Below are positions 17,615-52,354 of a stretch of DNA of 64,000 nt, piece after piece. Position 1 is the stretch's first letter. Every line of letters starts with the position of its first letter. The notes under the pieces were generated by a model. That model was not told the DNA's origin. It worked only from the letters and a program-made list of their open reading frames with translations, and did no database searches. The position numbers and the translations under genes are program-made. The stretch is from Erythrobacter sp. (GTDB lineage: Bacteria; Pseudomonadota; Alphaproteobacteria; Sphingomonadales; Sphingomonadaceae): NCBI GenBank assembly GCA_024642335.1, contig JAHEBH010000004.1, positions 1 to 64,000 of the forward strand, written 5' to 3'.

Positions 17615-17714
17615 TTATCCATTAACTACAGGATATCACGTAGGTTTGAGTCTTACCAGTGTCAGGCCCTTCAAAGGGCATTTCGGTGAAGAAAAGCGGT
17701 GATTTCGGCTGGGT

Positions 17715-18749: not shown

Positions 18750-19249
18750 TGCGGCTCGCTCAGCGCCAGGGTGAGGCGAGAGACGATGCGATCGGCCACC
18801 TGCCGGGCGAGGTTTTCCAGCGCGGTCTGTTCGGCGGCGATGGTGGCATATTCGGAGGAAACCACGTCGATACCGGCATCCGAACCGGCGGTGGCATCGA
18901 CCATGATCATGCCGCTTTCCATATCCACCAGCTGGTAGCGCGCGCGCAGCGTTCGCCGCTCGCGTCCGATGGTGTCGTCGGTCAACAGGCCCAGGCCTTC
19001 GAGCTGGTCGTCAAGCAGGACGTCGAGCCGGTAGCGCGGGGCGGCACTGACCCCCGCCTGGCCCAACCGGTCGACCAGCGCATTGCGCACCAGCCAGCCT
19101 TCCTGCCCCTGGATCGTCGAAACTTCGACAGCAGCGAGGCCCTGCGCCACAGCGCCATCGGCGCCGCCTGCATAGATGGGCCGCAAGCCGCAAGCCGAAG
19201 TTGCCGCCAGCAGGCCAAGGGCCAGGCAAAGGCGCACGGGCCTCGTCAT
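18746..19249 (-). CDS. lptE: LPS assembly lipoprotein LptE
   Basis: A 167-residue lipoprotein with a signal peptide and lipobox ending at Cys20 (LAATSAC), followed by GLRPIYAGG, the usual LptE start after the cysteine. LptE plugs the LptD barrel that inserts lipopolysaccharide into the outer leaflet. It sits between leuS and holA, overlapping each by 4 bp, the standard arrangement. Length and predicted fold fit the family, although sequence conservation is low. Confidence 0.88.
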
Positions 19250-21774
19250 GTAACGATATTCACCAGCCTGCCGGGCACCACGATCACCTTTCGCACTTCA
19301 GCTCCATCGATCGAACGCTGGACCTTCTCGCTCGCCAGCGCAAGCGCCTCCAGCTCTTCCTTCGGCAGCCCCTTGGCGACAGTGAGCGTATCGCGCAACT
19401 TGCCCTTGTGTTGCACGGCAATGGTCACCTCGTCTTCGACCAGCAGCGCAGGATCGACTTCGGGCCATGCGGCCATAGCAGCCAATCCGTCATGGCCCAG
19501 CGCTTCCCATCCCTCTTCGGCAAGGTGCGGCATCATCGGCGAAACCATGAGCAGGATCGCGCGGATCGCTTCGTTGCGGCTGGCGGAGGGCTGAGTCTTC
19601 TCTAACGCCGAGGTAAGCTCGTAAAGCCGCGCTACCGCCTTGTTGAAAGACAGCGCCTCGATATCTGCAGAGACCGCATGCACGGTCTGGTGCGTCTTGC
19701 GGTCGAGCGCCTTGTCCTCGCCACTCGCATCGCCATCGAACTGCCCGAACAGCCGCCACAGGCGCTGGACGAACCGGCCACAACCCTCGATCCCGGCTTC
19801 GGACCACGGCAGGTCGCGCTCTGGCGGGCTGTCGGAGAGCATGAACCAGCGCACCGCATCAGCACCGTAATCGGCGATGATGTCTTCCGGGTCGACGACG
19901 TTCTTCTTCGACTTGGACATCTTGATGACCTTGCCGATGTCGACCTTCTGGCCATCCGCCTTCAGCACTGCGCCTTCGCTCGAACGTTCGACTTCACCCG
20001 GCGTGAAGTAAATCTCCCGCGGACCATCCCTGCGCGAATAGACTTCATGGGTGACCATGCCCTGCGTGAATAGCGAAGCGAAAGGCTCCTTGACCTCCAC
20101 CAGCCCGCAATAGGCCAGCGCACGGGTCCAGAAGCGGGCGTAGAGCAGGTGCAGGATCGCATGCTCGATGCCGCCGATATATTGCTCGACCGGCAGCCAT
20201 TGCGCGACTTCGGCCTTGTCGAACGGCTTGTCCGCAGGCTGGCTGGCGAAGCGCAGGAAATACCAGCTGGAATTGACGAAGGTGTCGAGCGTGTCGGTCT
20301 CGCGCCGCGCGGGCTTGCCGCAGGTCGGGCAGTCGGCATGCTTCCAGCTCGGATGGCGTTCCAGCGGATTGCCGGGAATGGAAAAGTCCACATCCTCGGG
20401 CAGCGTGACCGGAAGCTGGTCATTGGGAACGGGCACCACGCCGCAGGCGTCGCAATGGATGAAGGGAATGGGCGTGCCCCAATAACGCTGGCGCGAAACG
20501 CCCCAGTCGCGCAGCCGCCACACGGTCTTGCCCTCACCAGATTCGGCCGCCTCGATCCGTTTGATCACCTCGGCCTTGGCGTCGGCGACGCTCATGCCAT
20601 CGAGGAAGCCGGAATTGACGCAAATGCCATCGCCCGCCTCGGCTTCGGTCAGCGGAGCAGCGGCCTGGTCGGCGCTGGCGGCGATGACACGCACGATCGG
20701 AAGGCCGTACTTGGTGGCGAAATCGAAGTCGCGCTGGTCATGGCCCGGCACAGCCATGATCGCGCCGGTGCCGTAATCCATCAACACGAAATTGGCGATG
20801 TAGACGGGCAGGTATTCGGCGGTGAACGGGTGCTTCGCGCCGATGCCGGTATCGAATCCGAGCTTTTCCGCCGTTTCCAGTTCCGCCGCCGTCGTGCCGC
20901 CCTGCTTGCACAGATCAATGAACTTGGCCGCATCGCAGTTGGTTGAGGCAACGCCTTGCGCCAGCGGATGATCGGCAGCGACAGCGACAAAGCTCGCGCC
21001 AAAAATCGTGTCCGGCCGCGTGGTGTAGACTTCCAGCTTCTCGCCATTGGACAGGTCGAAGGCGAACTGCAGGCCGGTACTCTTGCCGATCCAGTTCTCC
21101 TGCATCAGCCGGACCTTCTCGGGCCAGTTTTGAAGGTTCCCGAGACCGTCGAGCAGGTCCTGGGCAAAATGGGTGATCTTGAGGAACCACTGGTTGAGCT
21201 TGCGCTTCTCCACCAGCGCGCCCGAACGCCAGCCGCGGCCATCAACCACCTGCTCGTTCGCCAGCACGGTCATGTCGACCGGATCCCAGTTCACCGCGCT
21301 TGTCCGGCGATAGACGAGGCCCGCCTTGTAGAGCTCGAGGAACAAAGCCTGTTCATGGCCGTAATATTCGGGATCGCAGGTGGCGATCTCGCGGCTCCAG
21401 TCGAGCGCGAAGCCCAGCTGCTTCAGCTGGCGCTTCATCGTATCGATATTGTCGTGGGTCCAACCGGCTGGGTGGACGCCCTTTTCCATCGCCGCATTTT
21501 CCGCCGGCATGCCAAAGGCATCCCAGCCCATCGGGTGCAGCACCTCGTGCCCGCGCATCTTCTTGTAGCGCGCCAGCACGTCACCCATCGTGTAGTTGCG
21601 CACGTGGCCGATATGGATACGCCCGCTGGGATAGGGGAACATCTCCAGCACGTAGCTCTTCGGCTTGTCGCTATGGCTGTCCGCCTCGAAGCAGCGAGCA
21701 TCGTCCCAGGCGGCTTGCCAACGAGAGTCTGCCTGCCCGGGGTCGAACCGGACATCGAATCGCGAATTGCTCAT
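19246..21774 (-). CDS. leuS: Leucyl-tRNA synthetase
   Basis: An 842-residue class I synthetase that charges tRNA-Leu. The HIGH motif is at 54-57 ([10 protein letters not shown]) and KMSKS at about 618-622, followed by [11 protein letters not shown]. Between them is the CP1 editing insert ([26 protein letters not shown]) that hydrolyses mischarged tRNA, and a zinc-finger-like [18 protein letters not shown] segment. It leads the leuS-lptE-holA unit, with the DUF3576 lipoprotein gene 27 bp upstream probably in the same transcript. Confidence 0.97.
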
Positions 21775-32295: not shown

Positions 32296-34299
32296 TCAGG
32301 CCGTGACCAGATCCGGCGCGGTTGCGGCCTTGCGCAGCATTTCCACCGCTTCGTCCAGCTTGAGGAACTGCTGCTGCTTTTCGCCCAGTGTCCGCAGCGC
32401 CACCGTTGCTTCCTCGGCTTCGCGTTTGCCAAGCACGAGGATGTAGGGAACCTTGGCCACAGAGTGTTCGCGCACCTTGTAGTTGATCGATTCGTTGCGG
32501 AAATCGGTGTCGATCCGCAGGCCCGCCGCCGCCAGATTTGCCGCCACTTGCCGGGCATAGGGATCGGCATCGGAAACGATGGTTGCGACGACCGCCTGCA
32601 CCGGCGCCAGCCATGCTGGAACGCGTCCAGCAAAATGCTCGATCAATATGCCGATGAAGCGCTCGTAGGAGCCGAAGATCGCGCGGTGCAGCATGACCGG
32701 GCGGTGCTTCTCGCCGTCCTCGCCGACATAGGTCGCATCGAGGCGTTCGGGCAGGACCCGGTCGGACTGGATCGTGCCCACCTGCCAGGTGCGGCCGATG
32801 GCATCGGTGAGGTGCCATTCCAGCTTCGGCGCATAGAAGGCGCCTTCGCCGGGAAGTTCTTCCCAGCCGTATTCCTCTGTCGCCATGCCTGCATCGACAA
32901 CGGCCTGGCGCAATTCCGCCTCTGCCTTGTCCCAATCCTCGTCCGAACCGAAACGCATCTCGGGGCGCAGGGCGAGCTTGACCGAATAGGTGAAGCCGAA
33001 GTCCTTGTAGATCCGGTCCGCCAGTTCGCAGAAGGCGCGCACTTCGGACACGATCTGGTCCTCGCGGCAGAAGATGTGCGCATCGTCCTGCGTGAACTGG
33101 CGTACGCGCATCAGGCCATGCAGCGCGCCATGCGGCTCGTTGCGGTGGCAGCAGCCGTTTTCATACAGGCGCAGCGGCAGGTCGCGATAGGAGGTGATGC
33201 CCTGTTTGAAGACCTGCACGTGCGCCGGGCAGTTCATCGGCTTCAGCGCCATCCACGCCGCCTCGTCGGACACGATGGGGCCATCGTCCTCGGTATTGGG
33301 AACCTCGTCAGGGATGACGAACATGTTCTCGCGATATTTGCCCCAGTGGCCGGATTTCTCCCACTGGCGCGCATCCATGACCTGCGGCGTCTTGATCTCC
33401 TGATAGCCCGCCGCATCGATCGCGCGGCGCATATAGGCTTCCAGCTCGCGCCAGATCTTGTAGCCGTTGGGGTGCCAGAAAACGCTGCCATGCGCTTCTT
33501 CCTGCAGGTGGAACAGGTCCATCTCGCGGCCCAGCTTGCGATGGTCGCGCCTGGCAGCTTCTTCCAGCCGGACAAGGTGCGCATCAAGCTGCTTCTTGTT
33601 GAGCCAGCCGGTGCCGTAAATGCGCGTGAGCTGCGCGTTCTTCTGGTCGCCGCGCCAGTAGGCTCCCGCCACGCGCATCAGCTTGAAGGCTTGGCTGTCG
33701 AGCTTGCCGGTCGAGGGAAGGTGCGGGCCGCGGCACATGTCGAGCCAGTCATCGCCGGACCAGTAGACGGTGAGTTCTTCGCCTTCAGGCAATTCCTGCG
33801 CCCATTCGGCCTTGAAAGCCTCGCCATCGGCCTGCCATTTTTCGATCAGCTGCTGGCGCGTCCACACCTCGCGGCGCAGCGGCTTGTCGGCAGTGATGAT
33901 CGCGCGCATCTTTTCCTCGATCGCGGGGAGATCATCCATGCTGAAAGGCTCGCGGGAGGCGGGGGCCATCACGTCATAATAGAAGCCGTCATCGGTAGCC
34001 GGGCCGAAGGTGATCTGCGTGCCCGGCCACAGCGCCTGCACGGCTTCGGCCAGCACATGGGCATAATCGTGGCGCGCCAGTTCCAGCGCCTCTGCCTCGT
34101 CGCGCGCAGTGACAAGCGCAAGTTCGGCATCGCCATCGAAGGGCCGGTTCAGATCGCGCAATTCGCCGTTCACGCGCGCCGCAATCGCCGCCTTGGCAAG
34201 GCCCGGACCGATAGCGGCAGCCACGTCTCCCGGGGTCGAGCCCGCGGGAACCTCGCGCACCGAACCATCGGGAAGGCTGATCTTCAACAAATCGCTCAT
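32296..34299 (-). CDS. thrS: Threonyl-tRNA synthetase
   Basis: A 667-residue class II synthetase that charges tRNA-Thr. In order: an N-terminal TGS domain, the editing domain with its [11 protein letters not shown] metal motif, the catalytic core ([12 protein letters not shown] with the zinc Cys; [15 protein letters not shown]), and the C-terminal anticodon-binding domain ending in [15 protein letters not shown]. The 135 bp before the ATG hold the elements of a transcription attenuator, and before these lies a Thr-rich leader gene, so expression probably rises when charged tRNA-Thr is scarce. Confidence 0.97.
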
Positions 34300-34380
34300 C
34301 GAAACTCGCTCTCAATTCTCTTGCGCGCGCCATGGCACATCAGCCAGCGCACCGGAAGGGGCGGCGCCGAGTTGGAAACA

Positions 34381-34420
34381 GCTTCGGGAGGTTGACGCCG
34401 CACCGCCCGAAGCCGGGCGG
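34381..34420 (-). promoter_or_regulatory. Predicted transcription attenuator before thrS
   Basis: On the minus strand the leader transcript can fold in exclusive ways. Segment 2 (34414-34420, CCGCCCG) pairs with segment 3 (34403-34409, CGGGCGG), a seven-base stem with a GCTT loop. Alternatively GCTTCGGG (34406-34413) pairs with CCCGAAGC (34381-34388), eight bases extendable to ten, followed by TTTCC, a terminator-like form. A GGGCGG inside the leader peptide gene (34450-34455) can in turn pair with CCGCCC of segment 2. This is the 1:2:3:4 layout of ribosome-controlled attenuators. The terminator T-run is short. Confidence 0.65.
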
Positions 34421-34434
34421 CGGCAGTCGCGAAT

Positions 34435-34506
34435 TCAGCCCGCGACCAACCGCCCCCGGTAGCCCGGGGTGGTAGTAGTCTGGGTAGTGATGCGCTCCTG
34501 CGTCAT
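34435..34506 (-). CDS. Threonine-rich leader peptide of thrS
   Basis: A 23-codon open frame ending 135 bp before thrS. Seven residues are Thr (positions 2, 7, 8, 10, 11, 12, 13), with a run of four at 10-13; the remainder is PGYRGRLVAG. Such a density of the amino acid charged by the downstream enzyme is the mark of an attenuation leader. No ribosome site precedes the ATG, and the predicted transcription start is only about two bases upstream, so it may be translated as a leaderless mRNA. Confidence 0.75.
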   Translation of the reverse strand: MTQERITTQTTTTPGYRGRLVAG

Positions 34507-34514
34507 GTGTGCAG

Positions 34515-34543
34515 CATATAAGCATGGAATGCTTAACTGTCAC
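34515..34543 (-). promoter_or_regulatory. Predicted thrS promoter
   Basis: On the minus strand GTGACA (34543-34538) and TATATG (34520-34515) are separated by exactly 17 bases, close to the sigma-70 consensus. Transcription would start near 34508, just before the leader peptide ATG at 34506. Confidence 0.6.
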
Positions 34544-34600
34544 TAACCCGCCGTTCCGGCCCTTGGCGCGGCTGCCGCAAGGGTCCATGATGAGCTCCAT

Positions 34601-35338
34601 ATGAGTGCGTTGGTCACACAGTTTGCAGAGATTGCCGGGCGCCGGATCGCTTTTCGCCACGCTCCCGGAAGCGGGCCGGCGATCGTCTTCCTGCCCGGCT
34701 ATATGTCCGACATGGCGGGCAGCAAGGCGACGGCCCTGTTCGACTGGGCCAGCGCTGTCGGGCGCGAATGCCTGTTGCTCGATTATTCGGGTTGCGGCGA
34801 AAGCCCCGGCCAGTTCGCCGATGGCACGCTGTCACGCTGGTGCGAAGAAGTTGTGGGGCTGGTGCAGAGCGCGATCGGCAGCAAGCACGTCGTGCTGGTA
34901 GGATCCTCCATGGGCGGCTGGCTGATGCTGCTCGCGGCGCAGGCTCTGGGCGACAAGGTTTGCGGACTGGTCGGGATTGCTGCCGCACCCGACTTTACCA
35001 GCTGGGGCTATGACGCGGAACAGAAGGCAAGCCTCGCCGCCGGGACGACGATCTATCAGGAAAGCGACTACGGCTATGATCCCATGCCCACCCATCCGGG
35101 CTTCTGGGCAGACGGCGAGGTGCAACTGCAATTGACGGGCGAGATACCGCTCGCCTGCCCGGTACGCCTACTGCACGGGCAGGAAGATGCCGATGTCCCG
35201 CCCGAAATCTCCTTGCGACTTGCCAATGCACTGCGTTCAGAGGATGTGCAGGTGACCCTTGTCAAAGGCGGCGATCACCGCCTCTCGCGCGATAGCGATA
35301 TCGCCCTGCTCCTGCGCACGGTGGCCACGATACGCTGA
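34601..35338 (+). CDS. Alpha/beta hydrolase
   Basis: A 245-residue alpha/beta hydrolase resembling the ABHD10/thioesterase-like group. The nucleophile elbow is GSSMGG (Ser103); the acid is in LHGQEDADVP and the His in KGGDHRLS near the end. The cap region is short. The substrate is unknown, probably a small ester or thioester. It is divergent from thrS and is followed 16 bp later by a repeat protein gene and then an LLM oxidoreductase gene, which may form one operon. Confidence 0.85.
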   Translation: MSALVTQFAEIAGRRIAFRHAPGSGPAIVFLPGYMSDMAGSKATALFDWASAVGRECLLLDYSGCGESPGQFADGTLSRWCEEVVGLVQSAIGSKHVVLVGSSMGGWLMLLAAQALGDKVCGLVGIAAAPDFTSWGYDAEQKASLAAGTTIYQESDYGYDPMPTHPGFWADGEVQLQLTGEIPLACPVRLLHGQEDADVPPEISLRLANALRSEDVQVTLVKGGDHRLSRDSDIALLLRTVATIR

Positions 35339-37174: not shown

Positions 37175-40100
37175 ATGGCCAAGGCAAGACCCACGGCGAA
37201 GACAGCCCGGCAGCATTTCGCCAAGGTGCTGAAGGGCCGGATCAGCGATTCGATCCTGCCGGGCGAGGTCGGCCTGGAAGGCAAAGCTCTGGATGAAGCG
37301 GCAGACTTCCTGCTCGAAGCCGCGCATCATCGCGACAATGGCAAGCCTTCGATCCTCATCGAAACAGTAACCGGCAGCAAGCGGATCACCCGCATCGCGG
37401 TGGTCAACCGCGACGTGCATTTCCTGGTCGATTCGATATCGCGCGCCATTGCTACCCAGGGTCTGACAATCGACCTCCTGGTCCATCCCATCCTGCACGT
37501 CCGCCGCGATTCCGGTCGCAAGCTTGTCGCACTGCCCCCGGACCAAGGTGGGGGCGAATTGCGCGAAAGCTTCATCTATGTCGAAACCGACCGGATAGAT
37601 GCCAAGCAGCGGCGCGCGCTCGAATCTGAAATTGCCCGCACCATTGCCGATGTCCGCGCCGCCGTGGCCGACTGGCCAAAGATGCGCGAGCGTATTCTCC
37701 AGGACGCCGACGAGCTCTGCGATGCCGAAGGAGCCGCGCTGCTGCGCTGGCTGGGCGGCGGTATGTTGACGCAGCTAGGCCATGTAACCCGCCACCGCGA
37801 GGGCAGCGAAACCGGCAAGCTCGGCATCTGCCGCATGAGTACGCAAGACGTAATGGCCGATGCAACCTTCGATCGCGCATTCGCGTGGTTCGACGGAGCG
37901 AATGACGGTCAGGGCCGCGCACCGCTGATCATCAAGGCCAACCGCCTGAGCAAGGTCCACCGCCGCGTGCCGCTGGACCTGTTTATCATCCCGCACTTCG
38001 AAAATGGCCGCGTAGCCGCACTCTCGATCCATGCCGGCATCTGGACCAGCGCTGCTCTGACCGCACCGCCCGACCAGGTTCCCGTGCTGCGCCGTCAGCT
38101 TGCGGGGATCATGGAGGACCTCGCATTCAAACCCGAAAGCCATGACCACAAAGCGTTGATCCATGCGCTGGGCGTGTTGCCGCATGACCTGATGGTCAGC
38201 TTTGCCGAGAGCGACACATTGCGCGTCGCCACCGCCATGATGTCGCTGGTGGACCGCCCGCGCCCGCGCGTCGCGCTGGTATCGGCACCGCTCGAGAGGC
38301 ACATCTTCGCCTTCGTCTGGTTGCCGCGCGACATGCTTTCCACCACGGTGCGCTTGCAGATCCAGCACCTGCTGGAAGAATCCACCAACTCACGGCCGCT
38401 CGACTGGAGCCTCGTGGTGGAGGGCGGCAATCTCGCCCTGCTTCGCTATGTGCTCGATGCCCGCGGCGAGACGACCAGCGCCGATGCGGAAGTTCTGGAT
38501 GCGCGACTGCAGGTCATGCTTCGCGGCTGGGGCGATGCAGTGGAAGCCGCACTGTCCGAAATTGAGGAGCCTGGCAGGGCCGCTGGACTGGCCCTTCGTT
38601 ATGCCGCCAGCTTTCCCGCTTCCTATCGCACGGCTTATGGCGCCGCCGACGCCGCGCGCGATATCGAGCGGTTGCGTCATCTGGGTGCAGAGGATGGTCA
38701 TGCGCTGGGGCGCGATGCGCGCCTCTACTGCTTGCCGGACGATACGGGAGACCGCCTGCGCCTGAAGATCTATCAGGCAAAAGGGTCTCTGCCCTTGTCC
38801 GACGCCGTTCCGGCGCTGGAGAATTTCGGCTTCCGCGTGCTGGCAGAAGTGCCCACCATGCTGACCGGCGAGGACGACGGAACGATCCACGATTTCCTGC
38901 TCGCCGTCCCTCAAGGGATGACATACGCGCCTCTCCTTGAGCGCGCGGACAGCATCGAACTGGCGATCACCGCCGTCCTCAACGAAAAGGCGGATGACGA
39001 TGTCTTCAACCGGCTGGTCATCGCCTGTGCGCTTTCCGCGCAGGAGAGCGAATGGCTGCGCAGCTTCTATCGCTACCTGCGGCAGGCCAGTACCGCCTTC
39101 ACCATCTATACGGTGGTCGATGCGCTGGCGCATGCCCCGCAGGTGACGCGCGGGTTGGTCGAATTCTTCCGCCATCGCCATGACCCGGCCTTCACGGGCG
39201 ACCGCGCGGAGGCCTGTGCCAGGGCAGAGGCGGAGATTCGAGCGGGCCTGGCCAATGTGGCAGCAATCAATGACGACCGCATCCTGCGCCTGTACTGGCA
39301 GGTCATCGGCGCAATATTGCGCACCAATGCCTTTGCCCCGGCCGGTGCCGACGCGCTCGCATTCAAAATCGATTCCGCACTGGTGCCGGGCCTGCCCAGG
39401 CCTGTGCCGTGGCGCGAGATCTTCGTCTATTCGCGCCGGGTGGAGGGCATCCACTTGCGCGCCGGGCCGGTTGCGCGCGGAGGCCTGCGCTGGTCCGACC
39501 GGCGCGACGACTTCCGCACCGAAGTGCTGGGCCTGATGAAGGCGCAGCGGGTCAAGAACGCGGTGATCGTTCCCACCGGGGCCAAGGGCGGATTCTATCC
39601 CAAGATGCTCCCTAACCCCGCGCTGGACCGCGATGCATGGTTCAACGAAGGGCGCGAGAGCTACAAGCTCTTCATCCGCACGCTGCTGTCGGTCACGGAC
39701 AATATCGTCAATGACAGGGTAGTACATCCCGAAGGCGTGGTCGTACATGACGGGGACGACCCCTATTTCGTGGTTGCCGCAGACAAGGGCACGGCGACAT
39801 TCTCGGACACTGCCAACGCCATCGCGCTGGAACATGGCTTCTGGCTGGGCGATGCCTTCGCCAGCGGAGGGTCCAACGGTTATGACCACAAGGCGATGGG
39901 CATTACGGCGCGCGGCGCATGGATATCGGTCCAGCGCCACTTCCTCGAAATGGGCATCGATGTGCAGAAGGAGCCTGTACGTGTCGTCGGCTGCGGTGAC
40001 ATGTCGGGCGATGTCTTCGGCAATGGCATGCTGCTCTCCAAGGCGATCAAGCTCGTCGCGGCCTTCGACCACCGGCATATCTTCATCGATCCCGCCCCCG

Positions 40101-41866
40101 ATCCGGCGTCCAGTTGGAAAGAGAGGAAACGCCTGTTTGCCAAGCCGCGCAGCAGTTGGGCGGATTACAATTCCGCCCTCATCTCCAGGGGTGGCGGCGT
40201 GTATCCGCGCAACCAGAAGCGCATTGTCCTGTTCAGACAGGCGCGCGAATTGCTGGGCATAGCCGAGACAGAACTCGATCCCGAAAGCCTGATCGCCGCC
40301 ATTCTCAGGAGCCCCGCTGACCTGATCTGGTTCGGAGGCATCGGCACCTACATCAAGGCGGAAGGCGAGAGCCACGCACAGGTGGGTGACCCGGCCAATG
40401 ACGGATTGCGCGTCAATGCATCCGAGTTGCGCGCCAGGGTGATCGGCGAGGGCGCCAATCTGGGCGTCACACAAGCGGGCCGGATCGAATTCGCCCTGCA
40501 CGGCGGACGCATCAACACCGATTTCATCGACAATTCGGCGGGCGTCGATTGTTCCGACAATGAGGTGAACATCAAGATTGCGCTTACCGCCGCGCGCAAG
40601 GCGGGGCGCCTGTCCGAAGCGCGCCGCAACTCCCTGCTGGAGGATATGACGGGCGAAGTGGCCGGGCTGGTGCTGGAAGACAACCGCCTGCAGGCACTGG
40701 CGCTCTCCATCGCCGAAAGGGGCGGATCGCTGGCAATGGGCTCGCAAGTCCGGCTCATCGAGATGCTGGAGGAAATGGGCGAACTGGACCGCAAGACCGA
40801 AGGGCTGGCCGCCAGCGATGTCTTGGCCCGCCGCGCCGCGGACGGACACGGCCTGACGCGGCCGGAACTGGCGGTACTGCTCTCCAGTTGCAAGCTGGTC
40901 CTTCAGGACGCCGTTGAGGCTGGCACGCTGTCAGAGGACAAGGTGGCGGAGGATCTCCTGCTGTCCGATTTTCCGCCGCAGATGCGCGACGCCTATCGCA
41001 AGGTGCTGCTTTCCCACCACCTGCGCCGGGAGATCGTCGGCACGGTGGTGGCCAACCGGATCGTCAACCGCATGGGCATGGTCCATCCTTTCGAGCTGGC
41101 TGAGGAAGCCGGAGCCGGTCTGGACCGTGTTGCCTGCGCCTTCGTTTCCGCCTGCTCCTTGCTGGGAATGGATGCGCTGTGGGATGCGATCGAGCGGGCG
41201 AAGATCTCCGAAGAGGCGCGCCTCATGCTGTTCGAACAGGCTGCCCTTGGGCTCCGCCTCCATATGGCCGACCTGCTGCGTGCCGGCGGCTGTGGCGAGG
41301 CGCCAAGCCGTCTGAACGCTGAGCTCGGCCCGCTGGTCGATGCACTGTCCGAGCAAACCGAAAGCCTGCTCGGCTCGGAGGCACGCGCCCATGTCGGTTC
41401 CATTTCCAGCTTGCTGGCGAACGCCGGTGCTCCGGCGAAGCTGGCACAAATGGTTGCGCGGCTCTTTGCGCAGGATGGCGCATTCGGCCTCGCCATGCTC
41501 GCGCGGGACCGCAAGATTGCGCCTCTGGTGCTGGCCCAGGCCTTTGTGCAGCTGGGCGCCCTGCTTGGCCTCGACTGGGCACAATCGCGCGCTGCGGCGA
41601 TGAATCCTTCCGATCCATGGGAGCGATTGCTGGTCGCCGGGCTGGCAAGGGATTTTCAGCAGATGCGCCTCGAATTTCTGGGCAATCTGGCTTCTCGCCG
41701 CAAGGGCTTCGACATTGCAGGACAGGTCCAACAATGGGCCCAGCACAACCAGGCGAGTATCGCCAAGTTCCGTTCGGTCATCGCCAGGGCGCAGGCATCT
41801 TCGCCGACGACCCCTGCGGCACTGGCGCAAATCGCCAGCCATGCACGCACCCTGCTGGGGCGCTGA
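37175..41866 (+). CDS. gdhB: NAD-specific glutamate dehydrogenase, large type
   Basis: A 1563-residue GDH of the 180 kDa class, which deaminates glutamate to 2-oxoglutarate with NAD. A long N-terminal ACT-like regulatory part precedes the catalytic core, where RWSDRRDDFRTEVLGLMKAQ and VPTGAKGGFYPK (substrate-binding lysines) are seen, then VVGCGDMSGDVFGNGML in the NAD-binding domain and a helical C-terminal part. GGAG lies upstream of the ATG at 37175. The large class is used mainly for catabolism of amino acids. It is a single gene with no operon partner. Confidence 0.96.
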   Translation: MAKARPTAKTARQHFAKVLKGRISDSILPGEVGLEGKALDEAADFLLEAAHHRDNGKPSILIETVTGSKRITRIAVVNRDVHFLVDSISRAIATQGLTIDLLVHPILHVRRDSGRKLVALPPDQGGGELRESFIYVETDRIDAKQRRALESEIARTIADVRAAVADWPKMRERILQDADELCDAEGAALLRWLGGGMLTQLGHVTRHREGSETGKLGICRMSTQDVMADATFDRAFAWFDGANDGQGRAPLIIKANRLSKVHRRVPLDLFIIPHFENGRVAALSIHAGIWTSAALTAPPDQVPVLRRQLAGIMEDLAFKPESHDHKALIHALGVLPHDLMVSFAESDTLRVATAMMSLVDRPRPRVALVSAPLERHIFAFVWLPRDMLSTTVRLQIQHLLEESTNSRPLDWSLVVEGGNLALLRYVLDARGETTSADAEVLDARLQVMLRGWGDAVEAALSEIEEPGRAAGLALRYAASFPASYRTAYGAADAARDIERLRHLGAEDGHALGRDARLYCLPDDTGDRLRLKIYQAKGSLPLSDAVPALENFGFRVLAEVPTMLTGEDDGTIHDFLLAVPQGMTYAPLLERADSIELAITAVLNEKADDDVFNRLVIACALSAQESEWLRSFYRYLRQASTAFTIYTVVDALAHAPQVTRGLVEFFRHRHDPAFTGDRAEACARAEAEIRAGLANVAAINDDRILRLYWQVIGAILRTNAFAPAGADALAFKIDSALVPGLPRPVPWREIFVYSRRVEGIHLRAGPVARGGLRWSDRRDDFRTEVLGLMKAQRVKNAVIVPTGAKGGFYPKMLPNPALDRDAWFNEGRESYKLFIRTLLSVTDNIVNDRVVHPEGVVVHDGDDPYFVVAADKGTATFSDTANAIALEHGFWLGDAFASGGSNGYDHKAMGITARGAWISVQRHFLEMGIDVQKEPVRVVGCGDMSGDVFGNGMLLSKAIKLVAAFDHRHIFIDPAPDPASSWKERKRLFAKPRSSWADYNSALISRGGGVYPRNQKRIVLFRQARELLGIAETELDPESLIAAILRSPADLIWFGGIGTYIKAEGESHAQVGDPANDGLRVNASELRARVIGEGANLGVTQAGRIEFALHGGRINTDFIDNSAGVDCSDNEVNIKIALTAARKAGRLSEARRNSLLEDMTGEVAGLVLEDNRLQALALSIAERGGSLAMGSQVRLIEMLEEMGELDRKTEGLAASDVLARRAADGHGLTRPELAVLLSSCKLVLQDAVEAGTLSEDKVAEDLLLSDFPPQMRDAYRKVLLSHHLRREIVGTVVANRIVNRMGMVHPFELAEEAGAGLDRVACAFVSACSLLGMDALWDAIERAKISEEARLMLFEQAALGLRLHMADLLRAGGCGEAPSRLNAELGPLVDALSEQTESLLGSEARAHVGSISSLLANAGAPAKLAQMVARLFAQDGAFGLAMLARDRKIAPLVLAQAFVQLGALLGLDWAQSRAAAMNPSDPWERLLVAGLARDFQQMRLEFLGNLASRRKGFDIAGQVQQWAQHNQASIAKFRSVIARAQASSPTTPAALAQIASHARTLLGR

Positions 41867-41917
41867 CCCGCCGCACAAGGCTTGACGGGAGGGCCAATTG
41901 CGGCAAACCCCTGCGCC

Positions 41918-43144
41918 ATGACCAGTGCGGATGTAGTGATCGTGGGCACAGGACATGGCGGCGCACAGGCCGCCATATCGCTGCGCCAGAACGGCTTTGC
42001 AGGATCGATCCTGATGATCGGCCGGGATAGCTCTCCGCCCTATGAACGCCCGCCATTGTCCAAGGATTATTTCTCTGGCGAGAAGCCTTTCGAGCGCCTG
42101 CTGATCCGACCGGAACAGTTCTGGCGTGACAAGGAGATCGAGCTGCTGCTGCGCACTTCGGTGACGCGGATCGACCCTGTCGCACGAGAAGTGACCCTGA
42201 GCCAAGGCGGGCCGGTACGGTATGGCACGCTGATCTGGGCGGCCGGGGGCGATGCACGCCGCCTGTCATGCGCGGGCGGGCACCTGAATGGTATTCACGC
42301 CGTGCGCAACAAGCCCGATGTGGATGCCATGCTGGCCGAACTCGATGCGGGTGCCAAACGTGTGGTCGTCATCGGTGGCGGCTATATCGGCCTGGAAGCC
42401 GCTGCGGTGCTGACCAAATTCGATTGCAAGGTAACGCTGATTGAGGCGCTCGACCGCGTGCTGGCGCGCGTTGCCGGGGAAGACCTGTCGCGCTTTTTCG
42501 AAGCCGAGCATCGCCGGCACGGCGTCGACATCCGCCTGTCCTCGGCCGTTGAAGCCATCCTTGGCGATGGCGATCGCGTGCAGGCGGTCAAACTGGCCAG
42601 CGGCGAAGAAATCGCCTGCGACATGGTGGTGGCCGGCATCGGCATCGTGCCCGCAGTCGGCCCGCTGATCGCAGCAGGTGCCGCCGGGGCAGACGGCGTG
42701 GATGTGGACGAATTTTGCCGCACCAGCCTGCCCGATGTCTACGCCATCGGGGATTGCGCAGCACACGCCAATCCCTATGCCGATGGCGCCGTATTGCGGC
42801 TCGAGAGCGTGCAGAACGCGCATGACATGGCCACCGTGGCAGCGAAGGCGATTTGCGGTGAGGGCGAGCCCTATGACGCGCTGCCGTGGTTCTGGTCCAA
42901 CCAGTACGACATCCGCCTGCAGACTGCGGGCCTAAGCCTTGGTCATGACGATGCGGTCCTGCGCGGCGATCCGGCCGATCGCAGCTTCTCGGTCGTCTAT
43001 CTGAAAGACCTGCGCGTGATCGCGGTCGATGCGGTCAATCGCACCAAGGATTATGTGCAGGGGCAGAAGCTGGTGAAGGCGCGCACCATCGTGGACCCTG
43101 AGGCACTGCGAGATGCCGAAGTCCCGCTCAAGGATTTCCTCTGA
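41918..43144 (+). CDS. FAD-dependent ferredoxin reductase (rhodocoxin reductase type)
   Basis: A 408-residue flavoprotein with two dinucleotide-binding folds: [19 protein letters not shown] for FAD and [17 protein letters not shown] for NAD(P)[12 protein letters not shown] and YAIGDCAAH are family signatures, and the C-terminal Reductase_C domain is present. It passes electrons from NADH to a [2Fe-2S] ferredoxin for a P450 or ring hydroxylase. A P450 is encoded at 61 kb, but no ferredoxin gene is in the window, so the link is only possible. The ATG at 41918 is chosen over a TTG at 41882. It overlaps the convergent queG gene by 17 bp. Confidence 0.9.
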
Positions 43145-44201
43145 GCCTGCTGAGTGCCCATCGGGCGCTTTCTGCTACCACATCGTCTGCATCCTGAAGC
43201 AGTGCCTCGACTGCTGGCAGAAGCGCCGGATTGCCGCTGTTGCCGGCTGCAATCAGGCAGTTGCGGACAAAGCGGTTGCGCCCCACCCGCTTGACCGGGG
43301 AGCCGGAGAACTTCTGCCGGAAGGCGGCATCATCCAGCGCCAGAAGCTCCGCAAGATCGGGTGCGATCAGCTCCCCGCGCGGAGCAAGCGCGCGGTGGCG
43401 GGCGGCGGTATCGGCGAATTTGTTCCACGGGCAGACGGCGAGGCAATCATCGCAGCCGTAGATACGGTTGCCGATCGCCTCACGGAATTCCTCGGGGATC
43501 GGCCCGTGATGCTCAATCGTCAAATAGGATATACACTTCCTAGCATCTAACCGATATGGTTCTACAAATGCATCTGTGGGGCAGGCAGCCTGGCAAGCGG
43601 TGCAGGACCCGCAGCGATCATCGTGCTCCACATCGGGCGCGAAAGGCAGCGTGGTATAGATCGCTCCCAGGAACAGCCAGCTGCCATGTTCGCGACTTAC
43701 CAGGTTGGTATGCTTGCCCTGCCACCCTATGCCTGCCGCCTGTCCCAACGGCTTTTCCATCACCGGCGCGGTATCGACGAAGACCTTGAGTTCGACTTCC
43801 AGCCCGACTTTGCTCCCCTCCTCCACCAGCCAGCGCGCCAGCGCCTTGAGCGCCTTCTTTACCACGTCGTGATAGTCGCGCCCCTGCGCATAAACGGAAA
43901 TACGTGCCTTTTCCGCATCGCCTTCGAGCGCGAGCGGATCGACATCGGGCGCGTAGGACATGCCAAACGCGATCACGCTCTGCGCCTCGGGCCACATGCT
44001 TTGCGGGCCCTGCCGCACATCGGCGCGATCCGCCATCCATTCCATCGATCCGTGAAAGCCCGCATCGATCCATTCGTGCAGCCGCGCAGCGCGGACCGGG
44101 TCATCGGCAGCAGGCGCAAAGCCCACGGCGGCAAAGCCCAGCTCCGCCGCCTTGACGCGCAAGGCGTTCTGAAGTGGAGCGAGGACCAGCGCCTTAACCA
44201 T
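43128..44201 (-). CDS. queG: Epoxyqueuosine reductase
   Basis: A 357-residue QueG, the cobalamin- and iron-sulfur-dependent enzyme that reduces epoxyqueuosine to queuosine in tRNA. Cluster ligands are in [16 protein letters not shown] (around 197-212) and [13 protein letters not shown] (around 247-259). The N-terminal [15 protein letters not shown]-like segment ([18 protein letters not shown]) is conserved, and a HEAT-like C-terminus ([20 protein letters not shown]) is present. No other queuosine gene is nearby. Confidence 0.95.
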
Positions 44202-44245
44202 AATCCTGCTTGCTCCCGTTCATGCTTGGCCTGTAACCCGTAGCG

Positions 44246-45208
44246 ATGGACATTGCGACATCCGACATCACGGAACTGGCGATAGAGGCCCGCGGGCTGG
44301 TCAAGCGCTTCGATGAAACACTCGCGGTCGACGGCGTGGACATCAGCGTGCCCAGAGGCTCCATCTACGGCATCCTCGGCCCCAATGGCGCAGGCAAGAC
44401 CACCACATTGCGCATGCTGCTGGGGATCATCGATCCCGATTCCGGCACCCGCCGCGTGCTCGGCCACGACAATCCGCAGGATATTGCCCGCCTGATCGGC
44501 TACCTGCCCGAGGAGCGTGGCCTCTACCCGGCAATGAAAGCCTATGAGGCAATTGCCTTCATGGGCGCGTTGCGCGGCTTGCCGCTGCCGCAGGGACGCG
44601 AGCGCGGCAGAAAGCTGATGGAAGACCACGGGCTGGGCCATGCGGTGGACAGGCAGATTCGCAAATTGTCCAAGGGCATGGCGCAGATCGTGCAATTGCT
44701 GGGCACTCTGGTGCACGACCCGCAGCTGGTGGTGCTGGATGAGCCGTTCTCCGGCCTCGATGCCATCAACCAGGGCAAGCTCGAAGTGCTGATCCGCTCG
44801 CTGGCGGACAGGGGAACCACGGTGATCTTTTCCACCCATGTCATCTCCCATGCCGAACGCCTGTGCGAAAACATCGCCATCATCGCAGGCGGGAAGGTTC
44901 CCTTTGCCGGACGCGTGGACGTGGCGCGCGATCGCATTCCCGCGCAGGTGCGGCTGGAAACCAGCGCCAGCGAGGGGCCGTGGCGCCATGCCCTTCCGCC
45001 GGACACGCGCCGAATCGGCCAGTTCTGGAATTTTCCCCTGCCCGAAAGCGGGATTGAACCACTGCTGCGCGCCCTGATCGATGGCGATGCCGGGATTTTG
45101 TCGCTCTCGATCGAGCGCGCCGGACTGCACGATGCCTTTGTCGCCATTGCCGGCGAAGCGGCTGCGGCAGAACTGGCCAAGAACACACCGAGCGAGGAGG
45201 CGGCATGA
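44246..45208 (+). CDS. ABC transporter ATP-binding protein, NatA type
   Basis: A 320-residue ATPase with Walker A GPNGAGKTTTLR, signature LSKGMAQ (the variant typical of NatA/ABC-2 exporters), and Walker B LVVLDEPFSGLD. A C-terminal extension of about 90 residues after the ATPase core is normal for this group. With the permease downstream it forms an ABC-2 exporter, possibly for sodium or a small toxic molecule. The stop overlaps the permease ATG by 4 bp. Confidence 0.92.
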   Translation: MDIATSDITELAIEARGLVKRFDETLAVDGVDISVPRGSIYGILGPNGAGKTTTLRMLLGIIDPDSGTRRVLGHDNPQDIARLIGYLPEERGLYPAMKAYEAIAFMGALRGLPLPQGRERGRKLMEDHGLGHAVDRQIRKLSKGMAQIVQLLGTLVHDPQLVVLDEPFSGLDAINQGKLEVLIRSLADRGTTVIFSTHVISHAERLCENIAIIAGGKVPFAGRVDVARDRIPAQVRLETSASEGPWRHALPPDTRRIGQFWNFPLPESGIEPLLRALIDGDAGILSLSIERAGLHDAFVAIAGEAAAAELAKNTPSEEAA

Positions 45209-46452
45209 GCATGGGCACGCAGGCGGGCCGCCTTTCGCTGTGGCATGCAGCATTCGTCATCGCGCGGCGCGATTTCACCGCAATATTGTTCAGCCGTGCC
45301 TTCATCTTCTTCCTGCTCGGCCCGCTCTTTCCGCTGGGCGTTGCCGCGCTGGCAGGCGGGATCGGCGCGCAGATCCAGTCCGAAGCACTGGCTGCCGATG
45401 TCGGCATCGCCATGCAGGCAGAGGACACCGATGCCTTCATTCAGGCACGAGACGGACTGGCGGCGCAGGTCGGCCCAGCGATTCCGCCAGTCGTGGTACT
45501 GGAAAGGCTTGAGCCCGGAGAAATCTTTGACGCGCAGGACGTGCTGGAAGGCGGCGAAGGCCGGATCGCGGCAGTGGTCACAGGCACGCTGGCGGCACCC
45601 GAACTGACCGCCCCGCAAGGCAATCTTGCGCGCTGGAGCGGGACGATAGCGCTGATCTCCGCCACTGCGCAGCGCGGCGAGGCGGCGACCTATCCGCACG
45701 TAGCGACCCATTCGGTTTCGACCAGCGGGGCGAGCGAAAACCGCGGCCGATACCAGACCGCGCAGGGCGGGCAGATATTGCTGTTCCTGCTGATCATGCT
45801 GCTGGCGAGCATGGTGCTGTCCAACCTCGTCGAGGAGAAGGGCAACAAGATTATCGAGATCCTCGCTGCTGCCGTGCCGATGAACGCCGTCTTCATGGGC
45901 AAGCTTTTGGCCATGCTGGGCATTTCCATTTTCGGGATCATGGTGTGGGGATCGGTCGGAACCGGCCTGCTGGCGCTGGGCGAACGCTCGCTATCAGAAT
46001 TCGCCAACCCGGGCGTGGGTTGGCCGATGTTCTTTGCGCTGGGAGCCATCTATTTCGCCATGGGCTATTTGCTGCTCGGCTCGATATTCCTGACGATTGG
46101 CTCGATGGCACCAACGGTGCGCGATGTGCAGACCATGGCCATGCCTGTGACCATGGCGCAGGTGGTGGTCTTCTTCCTGGCAAATATGGCTGTAACCAGA
46201 ATGGGGACATGGATCGAATATGCAGGCATCATGTTCCCGCTCAGCTCCCCCTTTGTCATGGTTGCGCGCGGAGCAATGGATGAGGCCTTGTGGCCGCATC
46301 TGCTCGCCATCGCCTGGCAGATTGTCTGCGTGGTGATCTTCGTGCGCGTCGGGTCGTCTCTGTTCCGCCGGAAAGTGATGAAGTCCGGCCCGCAAACGAC
46401 AAGGAGGAAGGGGCTCGCGTTGTTCAGGATCGGTTCGAAAACTACCGGATAG
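45205..46452 (+). CDS. ABC-2 type transporter permease, NatB type
   Basis: A 415-residue membrane protein with one N-terminal helix (AFIFFLLGPLFPLGVAALAGG), a periplasmic domain of about 150 residues and about five helices at the C-terminal end, the first at LLFLLIMLLASMVL followed by VEEKGNKIIEILAAAVP, a hallmark of the NatB/ABC2_membrane_3 group. It is the partner of the ATPase immediately upstream. The exported substrate is not known. Confidence 0.9.
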   Translation: MSMGTQAGRLSLWHAAFVIARRDFTAILFSRAFIFFLLGPLFPLGVAALAGGIGAQIQSEALAADVGIAMQAEDTDAFIQARDGLAAQVGPAIPPVVVLERLEPGEIFDAQDVLEGGEGRIAAVVTGTLAAPELTAPQGNLARWSGTIALISATAQRGEAATYPHVATHSVSTSGASENRGRYQTAQGGQILLFLLIMLLASMVLSNLVEEKGNKIIEILAAAVPMNAVFMGKLLAMLGISIFGIMVWGSVGTGLLALGERSLSEFANPGVGWPMFFALGAIYFAMGYLLLGSIFLTIGSMAPTVRDVQTMAMPVTMAQVVVFFLANMAVTRMGTWIEYAGIMFPLSSPFVMVARGAMDEALWPHLLAIAWQIVCVVIFVRVGSSLFRRKVMKSGPQTTRRKGLALFRIGSKTTG

Positions 46453-46461
46453 GAAGGCCAA

Positions 46462-46977
46462 ATGACTCTGCCAGAAAGCGACATTCGCTTACTCGACCGC
46501 CGCAAGGCCCTGCTCTGGCTGGGCGCGGGCGTGGCAATGCCTGCCATTACTGCATGCGGATCCCCTGCAAGCGCGCAACAGACCTATCGCTACAATTATT
46601 CCGAAGCCGAATGGCGCCGCCGCCTGACGCCGGAGGAATTCCGTATCCTTCGCGAGGCGGGGACGGAAAGGTCCTTCACCTCCCCGCTCAATGACGAAAA
46701 GCGTGCAGGCACTTTCGTTTGCGCGGGGTGTGCGAACCGCCTTTATTCCTCGCAGACGAAGTATGACAGCCGCACCGGATGGCCCAGTTTCTGGCAGCCG
46801 ATCGATCAGGGTGCGGTGAGCTATTCGACCGATTACAAGCTCGGCTACCCGCGCCGCGAAGTGCATTGCGCCGATTGTGGCGGGCACCTGGGGCATGTGT
46901 TCAACGATGGCCCCCCGCCCACCGGCAAGCGTCACTGCATCAACGGCATCGCGCTCGATTTCGTCCCCGCCGCCTAG
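46462..46977 (+). CDS. msrB: Peptide-methionine (R)-S-oxide reductase, exported
   Basis: A 171-residue MsrB with an N-terminal export signal: DRRKALLWLGAGVAMPAITAC, whose Arg-Arg and lipobox-like end suggest Tat export and possible lipidation at Cys32. The catalytic domain has the zinc cysteines CAGC and CADCGGHLGHVF, the substrate loop TGWPSFW, and the catalytic Cys159 in RHCINGIAL. It would repair oxidised methionine in the periplasm. It ends 4 bp inside the convergent gene and follows the ABC permease by 9 bp. Confidence 0.92.
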   Translation: MTLPESDIRLLDRRKALLWLGAGVAMPAITACGSPASAQQTYRYNYSEAEWRRRLTPEEFRILREAGTERSFTSPLNDEKRAGTFVCAGCANRLYSSQTKYDSRTGWPSFWQPIDQGAVSYSTDYKLGYPRREVHCADCGGHLGHVFNDGPPPTGKRHCINGIALDFVPAA

Positions 46978-48722
46978 CGGACCCGATAGACGCGCAGCGG
47001 CGCTGCGCTGAAACCCTCGACCGGTTCCAGCCATTCAGTCACTTCACCCACGGCGATCGCATCGGCGAAATTGCCCTCACCGGCGCTGCGGTAATGCGCA
47101 ATATCGGCATTGGACGTGCAGGCGACGACGTAATCGGCCCCGGTGGAACGGACGATCTCCTGCGCTGCATCGACGCTGCCGATGTTCGCGGCGATCACCT
47201 GGGCCATGCGCTGCTGGTTGCGGTGATAATTGGCGGCGACAACCGCATGACCGGTCTTGGCGAGTATTTCCGGCCCGCTGTCCAGAGGGGCGAAGAGAAG
47301 GCCGGACGGGAGGCTTGCGAGCTGCGCGAAGTCGCATTCCTCCGCTTCCAGAGGCGTGACTTGCAGCACCGCCTCCGGCGCAATCGGAGACAGCGGATCG
47401 AGCGGTTTCAAGGCCCCCGACACAAAGCTCGGCGTGGCAAGAAGGAAGCAGGCGAGCGTGGCGATGATGCGCGGCGCGGAGGCTTGCACGGCGCGCGCTT
47501 TGGGCAGGTAATGCGCCAGCAGGGCCGCCGCGAAGGGCACGGCGAGCAATTGCGCCACGATCGCCTCGCGCATCAGGACGAGCGAATAGAGGCAGGCGCA
47601 CAGGGTCAGGCCGGCATAGAGCAGCCAGGCTCGCGCGCCTTCCTCTGCCGCAAGGGCGACATGCCTTCGCGGCCAACAGGCAGCAAGCACCAGCAACGGC
47701 GTCCACAGCAGCATGGCCATGACCGAGAATGGTTGTTGCCAGATCGGCAGGCCCTCGGTGATCTGCCCATGCCAATACTGCAGGATGAGCGGATCGAGCT
47801 CCCCGAACGGATCGGCGGCACAGCTCCCCAGTGCGAAATAGGCGACGGGCGCGCTGATGGCGGCGATCACCACCAGTCCGCCCCACCGGCCCGCAGCGCG
47901 ATCCTGTCGCGGCAAGGCGGGCAAAGCCCAGGCGATGACAGCCGCTGCCGCAAAAGCCGCCATATGGCCGGGCAGCAGTATGTCGCAGTATGGCAGGGCA
48001 AATGAGCCAAGAGGCCGCGTCGCCAAAGACAGGGCAGGAGCGGCCATCGCGAGCGCGGTCAGGAACACTGCCAGCCGGCGATCGTCCCACAACCAATAGG
48101 CAAGACCGTAAAGCCCCGCAAAGGCTGCAACCATCGGCAGTCCTTCAAGCGAGATCGCCACCCATGCAGCCGCCAGCAGGCCGCACAATGCCGCACCCGC
48201 GCGCCCCGGCCTAAGCATCAGTGCAGCAGCGACCAGCCCCAGCACCGCCTGCGGCGCATGGTGATCGATGCGGAAGGGCATGAAACTGCCGGTCAGCAGG
48301 GGAAAGAGCGGCAGGATGACAAGGCCGAGACCAATGCCGAGCGGCGGCAAGTCCAGCCGCAGCAGGATCGACCTCAGCGCAAAGAGCGCACCCAGCAGGT
48401 AGAGCAGCGGAACGGCGAACAATGCCGCGGTCTCGCCCGCCAGCAGTGCCAGAAGCGCCAGCGGAATATCGACCAGACGCGACCAGTGCATGCTCGCGCC
48501 AGCAGGCGGATCGACGCGATATTGCGTGACATCCCACCAGCCCTGCCCGGCCAAGAGGTCGCGCACTTGCAGCAGGCGCATGTAGTCATCGGGGCCGTCC
48601 GGCTCGAAACCCGCCAAAATCTGGTATGCCAGAGCGAGCAGGCAGCAGAACCCCCACACCGCCCAGACGGCATCAGGGCGGGTCACAAAACGGTTCCAGT
48701 CAAAGGGGTTGGCTGTGGTCAT
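46974..48722 (-). CDS. GT-C-like polytopic membrane protein of unknown substrate
   Basis: A 582-residue membrane protein with about 12 helices and a C-terminal soluble domain. The first luminal loop has acidic residues (GPDDYMRLLQVRDLL), then a MHWSRL segment and FRIDHHAPQ after helix 3 or 4. This resembles oligosaccharyltransferase-like GT-C enzymes, which use polyprenyl-linked sugars, with DD acting in metal binding. I cannot name a specific family. It is followed upstream on the same strand by a GtrA protein and a UDP-galactopyranose-mutase-like flavoprotein, so it probably acts in a surface glycan modification. Confidence 0.65.
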   Translation of the reverse strand: MTTANPFDWNRFVTRPDAVWAVWGFCCLLALAYQILAGFEPDGPDDYMRLLQVRDLLAGQGWWDVTQYRVDPPAGASMHWSRLVDIPLALLALLAGETAALFAVPLLYLLGALFALRSILLRLDLPPLGIGLGLVILPLFPLLTGSFMPFRIDHHAPQAVLGLVAAALMLRPGRAGAALCGLLAAAWVAISLEGLPMVAAFAGLYGLAYWLWDDRRLAVFLTALAMAAPALSLATRPLGSFALPYCDILLPGHMAAFAAAAVIAWALPALPRQDRAAGRWGGLVVIAAISAPVAYFALGSCAADPFGELDPLILQYWHGQITEGLPIWQQPFSVMAMLLWTPLLVLAACWPRRHVALAAEEGARAWLLYAGLTLCACLYSLVLMREAIVAQLLAVPFAAALLAHYLPKARAVQASAPRIIATLACFLLATPSFVSGALKPLDPLSPIAPEAVLQVTPLEAEECDFAQLASLPSGLLFAPLDSGPEILAKTGHAVVAANYHRNQQRMAQVIAANIGSVDAAQEIVRSTGADYVVACTSNADIAHYRSAGEGNFADAIAVGEVTEWLEPVEGFSAAPLRVYRVR

Positions 48723-48731
48723 CGGCCCGCC

Positions 48732-49133
48732 TTAGCGGAAAACGACCTTGCTGCGCAGCACCCAGGTTGCGGCAAAGCTCACGGCAACGGCAACCAGCTT
48801 GGCCAGGCGCGGATCGAATCCCGACCCATCGCCCGCCCAGACGATTGCAGTGGTCAGTCCGAGTCCGACCAGCGCCGAAATGACAAACAGCGCCTTTTGC
48901 CGCGTCCGTTCCAGTCCGCGCTCCGCCACATTGCCGACAAAGACCGCGCGGCTGGACATCAGCCAGTGGGCAATGATCCCGGCACAATAGGCAATCGCGC
49001 TTGCCCCTGCCGCCCACATTCCGGCGGACAGAAGGGCAAGGAAGCATCCCATGTCCACAGCCAGCGCGCCCACGCTCGCCAGCAAATAGCGGATGAAGCG
49101 GATATCGCGCAGGCGGAGGAGGATGGCCGACAT
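48732..49133 (-). CDS. GtrA family membrane protein
   Basis: A 133-residue protein with four membrane helices, matching the GtrA family (FIRYLLASVGALAVDMGCFLAL and a KLVAVAVSFAATWVLRSKVVF end). GtrA proteins are thought to flip polyprenyl-phosphate-linked sugars to the periplasm. It sits between the GT-C-like gene and the flavoprotein gene with gaps of 9 and 5 bp, so the three are probably one transcript acting in the same glycan pathway. Confidence 0.9.
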   Translation of the reverse strand: MSAILLRLRDIRFIRYLLASVGALAVDMGCFLALLSAGMWAAGASAIAYCAGIIAHWLMSSRAVFVGNVAERGLERTRQKALFVISALVGLGLTTAIVWAGDGSGFDPRLAKLVAVAVSFAATWVLRSKVVFR

Positions 49134-49138
49134 ATTCG

Positions 49139-50722: not shown

Positions 50723-50766
50723 GCTCGCCCCTGATCTTGTTCCTGATCGGGAGTGAAGGAAAATGG

Positions 50767-51414: not shown

Positions 51415-51546
51415 ACAACCTCCATCCTTTGCGGAAAGACGCCGAAGAGCCCCACCGCATTCTTGCATGAGCCACTCTTAACCTTGTGATGTTTAGGAAC
51501 CGCTAACGGGGACTTGGGAAGGTCCCTTAGTCGCTCCTGGCCGATC

Positions 51547-52351: not shown

Positions 52352-52354
52352 TGG

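Follow-up and report, generated by a model that had tools for sequence, protein, structure and literature searches.

In the 64-kb stretch of Erythrobacter DNA analysed here (the window), the threonine--tRNA ligase gene thrS is preceded by a Thr-rich short frame and a set of competing hairpins, an arrangement common to many Erythrobacter- and Novosphingobium-type bacteria. We consider it very likely that this is a Thr leader attenuator, and we marginally favour the fuller reading in which the thrS leader is a ribosome-mediated attenuator that senses the charging of tRNA-Thr and is wired in reverse compared with the trp leader. The leader frame, the competing stems and two promoter-like elements (P1 and P2) emerge from comparison with related loci; sensing, the direction of control and the output are inferred. 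The features of the region are given below, in the order of their coordinates.

32296..34299, minus strand: thrS, threonine--tRNA ligase, 667 aa (TIGR00418, E 4e-192, above its cut-off)
34330..34358, minus strand: P2, promoter-like, CTTCCG (34358-34353), a fixed spacer of 17 nt, CCATGG (34335-34330)
34361..34401, minus strand: stem B, GCGGCGTC (34401-34394) with GGCGCCGC (34368-34361)
34381..34413, minus strand: stem 3:4 (C), GCTTCGGG (34413-34406) with CCCGAAGC (34388-34381)
34401..34422, minus strand: stem 2:3 (A), CGCCGCCCG-GCTT-CGGGCGGTG, including CCGCCCG (34420-34414) with CGGGCGG (34409-34403)
34415..34457, minus strand: stem 1:2, GGGGGCGG (34457-34450) with CCGCCGCCC (34423-34415), including GGGCGG (34455-34450) with CCGCCC (34420-34415)
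34446-34441 with 34431-34426, minus strand: stem F, which extends 1:2 around the stop codon (partner-swap test)
34435..34506, minus strand: leader frame MTQERITTQTTTTPGYRGRLVAG including the stop, ATG at 34506 and TGA at 34435
34454..34469, minus strand: hairpin 0:1, CCCCGG (34469-34464) with CCGGGG (34459-34454), starting in the last Thr codon
34515..34543, minus strand: P1, promoter-like, GTGACA (34543-34538) and TTATAT (34521-34516), from motif counts in 49 leaders

The leader frame and the promoter-like elements

The leader frame in the window has 23 codons, seven of them for Thr, with four in tandem at codons 10-13 (34479-34468), and both the coordinates and the content agree with the original prediction. 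Its stop lies 135 nt before the start of thrS, whose product contains the Pfam domains TGS, tRNA_SAD, tRNA-synt_2b and HGTP_anticodon, and the frame is thus rich in the amino acid that the downstream gene serves. No other short frame of 12-60 codons in the window has four or more consecutive Thr codons. In 30 simulations under a first-order Markov model such frames averaged 0.2 per 64 kb, and those with at least seven Thr codons 0.07; taken by itself, a four-Thr short frame in 64 kb is only moderately unlikely to arise by chance. A chance origin of the leader is excluded because, of the named thrS loci compared (the best 80 of a longer list), 48 keep it, and 46 of these 48 leaders are 22-24 aa in length.

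Together with the window these loci gave a set of 49 leaders, in which 47 peptides are 22-24 aa long and 33 of these exactly 23, the start codons in the relatives having been chosen by rule. One locus (L037) was excluded as a false Thr-run match, and another with an interrupted run (L076) was added by hand. Each leader has 4-12 Thr codons with a longest run of 2-9, and runs of at least four, using mixed codons, are present in 46 of the 49. Codon choice in the leaders differs from that in the gene, with ACT making up 21% of 373 leader Thr codons versus 7% of 1239 Thr codons in thrS genes. The distance from leader to thrS is 117-174 nt (median 135), the exceptions being L019, L035 and L041, which have an extra gene between, and L073, which has a deletion. 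The other 32 of the best 80 loci have no leader, including loci from Sphingobium, Stakelama and Sphingorhabdus and several from Novosphingobium, Croceicoccus and Aurantiacibacter.

Two variants of the arrangement were observed among the relatives. L073 is a natural deletion, in which the Thr leader is retained, the stretch holding 2:3, 3:4 and B is lost, and the leader stop lies 50 nt before thrS. In five loci (L019, L035, L041, L107 and L114), a frame distantly like RNase AS (NCBIfam RNase_AS, E 1.3e-5, far below the cut-off) lies between thrS and the leader with its stems 2:3 and B.

Upstream of the leader, P1-like boxes recur across the 49 leaders, with TGAC at -45 to -21 in 36 and CTA/TTA at -19 to -4 in 46; both are present in 35, separated by a spacer of 17 in 33 of these. 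The corresponding rates in random nearby 45-mers were 0.07, 0.07 and, for both boxes together, 0.00. The transcription start predicted from P1 would coincide with the leader ATG or lie no more than about 3 nt from it, and the leader frame is therefore expected to be leaderless. P2, for which we compiled the second hexamers by eye, is present in 42 of the 48 named loci with a leader (spacer of 17 in 41) and in 8 of the 32 without one (17 in all 8), and would function as a second promoter. A downstream hairpin around TTGTGCCATGG (GCGCGC arms) had been considered as an RNA element or tRNA-Thr mimic, and was set aside by eye because the CTTYNN-17-NNNNNN spacing is fixed and is also found in loci with no leader, as in a promoter. 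Four of the loci with no leader (L005, L038, L043 and L071) carry TTGAGG-17-TAAGGG at a distance of about 10 nt or less from the thrS ATG, which suggests a leaderless thrS message in these loci.

Competing hairpins and termination

Stems 1:2, 2:3 and 3:4 are mutually exclusive and were all found at the positions originally predicted for them; beyond these, our analysis added the conserved stem B, hairpin 0:1, stem F and the promoter-like elements P1 and P2. Segment 4 sits inside the loop of stem B, and B and 3:4 can exist together only as a pseudoknot.

We examined the stems in two alignments. The first (A1) held 45 of the 49 leaders, leaving out L019, L035 and L041 (inserted gene) and L073 (deletion). 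The second (A2) was a sequence-only alignment of 40 leaders, leaving out L073, L017 (atypical), L008, L010, L024, L026, L049 and L050 (indels or register shifts) and L057 (a near copy of L053), a selection of rows that therefore favours alignable ones. RNAalifold returned two stems from the 45 leaders, 2:3 and B. Across the 40 leaders, 1:2 was 93.1% paired with 9 double-change cells versus 2.2 in shuffles, 2:3 was 92.9% paired with 13 versus 5.0, 3:4 was 86.8% paired with 29 versus 11.0, and B, at 95.8% the best paired of the stems, had 21 versus 4.7 (0/500 in every case), where compensatory cells count sequences and not events. Likewise, each of the four beat six slid versions of itself in cells paired, compensatory cells and score. 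Counting pairs with a double change, or pair types, gave a weaker signal, with 32-33/500 for B, 12-20/500 for 3:4, values weakly above shuffles for 1:2 (69/500 and 68/500) and no excess over shuffles for 2:3 (372/500; 40 leaders). Hairpin 0:1 had 78.8% of its cells paired and showed no compensatory excess in a fixed register (5 versus 3.1, 59/500). Furthermore, in a partner-swap test, which is independent of alignment columns, the arms paired better with their own partner for each of 0:1, 1:2, F, 2:3, 3:4 and B (0/2000 for each), with four control pairings giving 507-1969/2000. Judged by these comparisons, 1:2, 2:3, 3:4 and B are a selected set of competing hairpins, and in the 40 of 49 leaders aligned they lie downstream of the regulatory codons. 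Both outcomes for which an alignment of relatives had been proposed in the original prediction, a conserved frame and compensatory changes, were thus obtained.

Termination at 3:4, which had also been predicted, was not supported. We found no intrinsic-terminator-like site in 34200-34700 of the window, where 3:4 is directly followed by TGTTTCC. Of 40 leaders, none had at least five T within 8 nt after 2:3 or after B, and 3 had them after 3:4. With no U-run in 37 of the 40 leaders and none in the window, 3:4 was rejected as an intrinsic terminator, and the hairpin plus U-run of a trp-type leader is missing from this position. A lax scan flagged 8 of 45 leaders as having a terminator-like site, compared with a shuffle mean of 4.0 (range 0-8). 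The loop of stem B is C-rich in the leaders (38% C, 15% G), a composition that suits Rho.

Elsewhere in the window, U-run terminator-like sites were no commoner than in shuffles (18 versus 14.2 in 1-20000 and 13 versus 14.1 in 40001-60000). A missing U-run therefore tells us less here than it would in E. coli, and the lineage of the Erythrobacter window may rely little on U-run terminators.

Ribosome position and the control of thrS

We computed equilibrium folds for the 40 leaders and took mean pair probabilities, with the ribosome placed by its front edge in nt past the last Thr codon. For RNA ending at segment 4, edges of 0 to +9 gave 0.85-0.94 for 1:2, 0.82-0.94 for 3:4 and 0.05-0.12 for 2:3. 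At +12, 1:2 was at 0.68 and 3:4 at 0.73, and at +15 these had fallen to 0.21 and 0.32, with 2:3 at 0.62. From +18 to +36, 2:3 reached 0.81-0.91 and 3:4 was at 0.08-0.13, and at about +45, with the ribosome at the stop and before B is made, 2:3 and 3:4 were at 0.52 and 0.48, respectively. The same RNA when free gave 0.65 for 0:1, 0.54 for 2:3 and 0.24 for 3:4, and in free RNA overall 2:3 reached just 0.45-0.54. For RNA extending through B, edges of 0 to +9 gave 0.83-0.88 for 1:2, 0.57-0.65 for 3:4 and 0.09-0.22 or less for B, and edges of +15 to +45 gave 0.75-0.88 for 2:3 and 0.42-0.74 for B. With a further 45 nt of RNA the 3:4 mean at 0 to +9 dropped to 0.44-0.47, and B was weak (0.23-0.51). 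A stall earlier in the Thr run (edge -9) gave 0.64-0.69 for 1:2 but 0.25-0.50 for 3:4. The window leader alone behaved like the 40-leader means, with 0:1 coexisting with 1:2 in some folds.

In these folds segment 1 is lost only when the front edge is at least 15 nt past the last Thr codon, and a ribosome whose A site holds a Thr codon should, from its footprint size, extend to about +9. Since the fold means change with edge position in this way, stalling would go with 1:2 and 3:4, and passage with 2:3 and B, an assignment of stems to ribosome position that is computational. Between the last Thr codon and segment 1 the alignment is gap-free in 40/40 rows, which fits segment 1 being kept just outside the ribosome footprint. 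A ribosome stalled on the Thr codons had been predicted to cover segment 1 and so allow 2:3 to form, as in trp-type leaders where stalling favours 2:3 over 3:4; the folds show the opposite. What survives of the proposed trp-style 1:2:3:4 layout is the mutually exclusive stems with their compensatory changes, and what is not supported is the terminator at 3:4 and the formation of 2:3 on stalling. Provided that this is a Thr leader attenuator, reversed wiring has, on the modelled folds, a moderately good chance of being correct.

With the wiring reversed, transcription from P1 would start at the leader ATG. When charged tRNA-Thr is ample, the ribosome would clear the Thr run and leave, and segment 1, covered or held in 0:1, would be unavailable, allowing 2:3 and B to form and giving low expression. 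When tRNA-Thr is uncharged, the ribosome would stall on the Thr run, opening 0:1 and ending just short of segment 1, upon which 1:2 would form, 3 would pair with 4, and B would be opened or forced into a pseudoknot, giving high expression. The low state probably operates without intrinsic termination, and could act either by Rho, through the C-rich B loop exposed by 2:3, or by B hindering downstream initiation, with a basal level of thrS provided by the separate promoter-like element next to the gene. A more committed form of this reading, to which as a whole we give somewhat less than even credence, is an even-parity switch, in which the stalled ribosome would keep segment 1 accessible and 1:2 with 3:4 would be the starvation state; in which a low state of 2:3 with the long-loop B (or a high state made of a 3:4 and B pseudoknot) would control Rho or ribosome entry with no intrinsic terminator; and which would form its own class of leader attenuation, found in one bacterial family so far and once before an RNase-like frame.

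The alternative that survives best, and one we regard as unlikely, is a classic trp-type attenuator, in which 3:4 terminates transcription and RNA polymerase reads on when a stall on the Thr codons allows 2:3 to form. The four-segment layout with compensatory changes is as this would have it, a short U-run does follow 3:4 in a few leaders, the lax scan found sites above the shuffle mean, and termination may not need a U-run, given that U-run terminators in other parts of the window do not exceed their frequency in shuffles; moreover, Thr leaders with textbook terminators do precede thrS in another family of the same class. However, the window region has no terminator-like site and nearly all leaders have no U-run after 3:4, the folds favour 3:4 precisely when the last Thr codons are occupied by the ribosome, and disfavour it in free RNA to segment 4, and stem B is left with no role. 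An improbable alternative is that the same leader switch acts on downstream translation only, with B and what follows it hindering ribosome entry. B is the best-paired stem, and by eye its 3' arm adjoins the presumed ribosome site of the intervening frame in the five loci that have one, but in the usual arrangement, which the window shares, about 60 nt containing P2 separate the end of B from the start of thrS, and B is weak in folds with the longer RNA. Finally, self-repression by ThrRS through binding to the leader RNA, with the Thr run being incidental, is very improbable, as this leaves the long runs of mixed Thr codons unexplained and there is no Rfam match at the leader, even though PMC2965389 describes the E. 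coli ThrRS as a protein that binds RNA and regulates itself.

Relation to known systems and distribution

At gathering score the 64-kb window had no Rfam match other than a tRNA at 51550-51633, and 34250-34650 had none up to E 1, Thr_leader and T-box included. The leader of the thr operon, which we take to be Rfam Thr_leader (RF00506), lies before thrABC and senses Ile codons as well as Thr; the thrS leader resembles it in having Thr codons, but differs in that thrS and not thrABC lies downstream. Our literature search, which ran mostly outside subscription journals, found no thrS leader-peptide attenuator in Alphaproteobacteria. Vitreschak 2004 and Lopatovskaya 2010, the second of which concerns aminoacyl-tRNA operons, are the likeliest places for an earlier thrS prediction. 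A thrS leader is not mentioned in the available parts of Naville and Gautheret (PMC2965389) and Korolev et al. (PMC4833913).

The closest system in print that we found is the uORFC-8-2 motif (PMC8632094), a Cys-codon uORF before cysS in Rhodobacterales that is predicted to act by ribosome-mediated attenuation. Its regulatory codons number two, it has two main stems, and the paper describes a U-run terminator for every case. Both are short frames with codons for the cognate amino acid before an alphaproteobacterial aminoacyl-tRNA synthetase gene; unlike uORFC-8-2, the thrS leader has Thr codons, up to 9 in tandem, and four competing compensated stems, usually with no U-run, and falls outside the definition of that motif. 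The thrS leader shares its leader peptide with regulatory codons and its mutually exclusive stems with trp-type leaders, and its predicted leaderless frame with the trpL/rnTrpL of Sinorhizobium, which is described as leaderless in PMC10117765; it differs from trp-type leaders, which have a terminator with a U-run, in that the computed folds place the stalled state in 1:2 and 3:4.

If the preferred reading of a reversed attenuator is correct, a leader peptide would place thrS under the control of its own charged tRNA in a large environmental group of Alphaproteobacteria, and synthetase leader attenuation in the class would extend from Cys and cysS to Thr and thrS and span at least two separate families and perhaps three. 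Four compensated competing stems with no terminator would also provide a test of how a stalled ribosome acts beyond intrinsic termination.

A covariance model built from the 40-leader alignment matched 67 of 199 genomes of the family of the window, with one match each, a lower bound because the scans used strict filters and scored at most 9 candidates per genome. Of these matches, 65 are upstream of thrS on the same strand, 61 at 48-96 nt and four at 568-581 nt; one of the remaining two is on another contig than thrS, and the other is in a genome with no listed place for thrS. Among 385 genomes of the class four matched, all from the same family, and for the reasons just given the absence of matches outside it is weak evidence. 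In the genome of the window itself the model matched only at thrS, other matches having E above 3.

A lax rule applied to 60 thrS upstream regions from outside the family flagged five (L129, L134, L137, L139 and L153). In the family of L129 (f65; loci L206-L214), which belongs to the same class, a Thr leader precedes thrS in 6 of 9 loci, and a compact hairpin followed by TTTTTT is present in 5 of 9, with the lax scan flagging the sixth leader locus as well. These counts include one locus with just 145 nt upstream (L212) and leave out one that is truncated (L215). In L207, for example, the arrangement lies about 230-320 nt before the thrS match; the terminators of the five loci are of the textbook kind (GACCCTCCCGG...CCGGAGGGTTTTTTG). 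As in the window, competing hairpins follow a Thr-rich frame, which in f65 lies 120-270 nt upstream of the thrS match; unlike in the window, the peptide is MTARTTTTATTTRTSCGGP-like and terminators are present, and we noticed no likeness in sequence. A fold map of three f65 loci did not show a clean antiterminator, and the f65 leader looks like a trp-type layout. Thr leader candidates followed by a strong hairpin also precede thrS in L153 (MRTHPVLRSTATTTTTATGGRWRMRA) and L234 (MNARTLTTTTTATGGRWEGAR). L234 was the only one with a candidate leader among 20 further loci from the family of L153, with no Thr run in 30 others (L176-L205), and L153 and L234 may represent a possible third lineage with a Thr leader before thrS.
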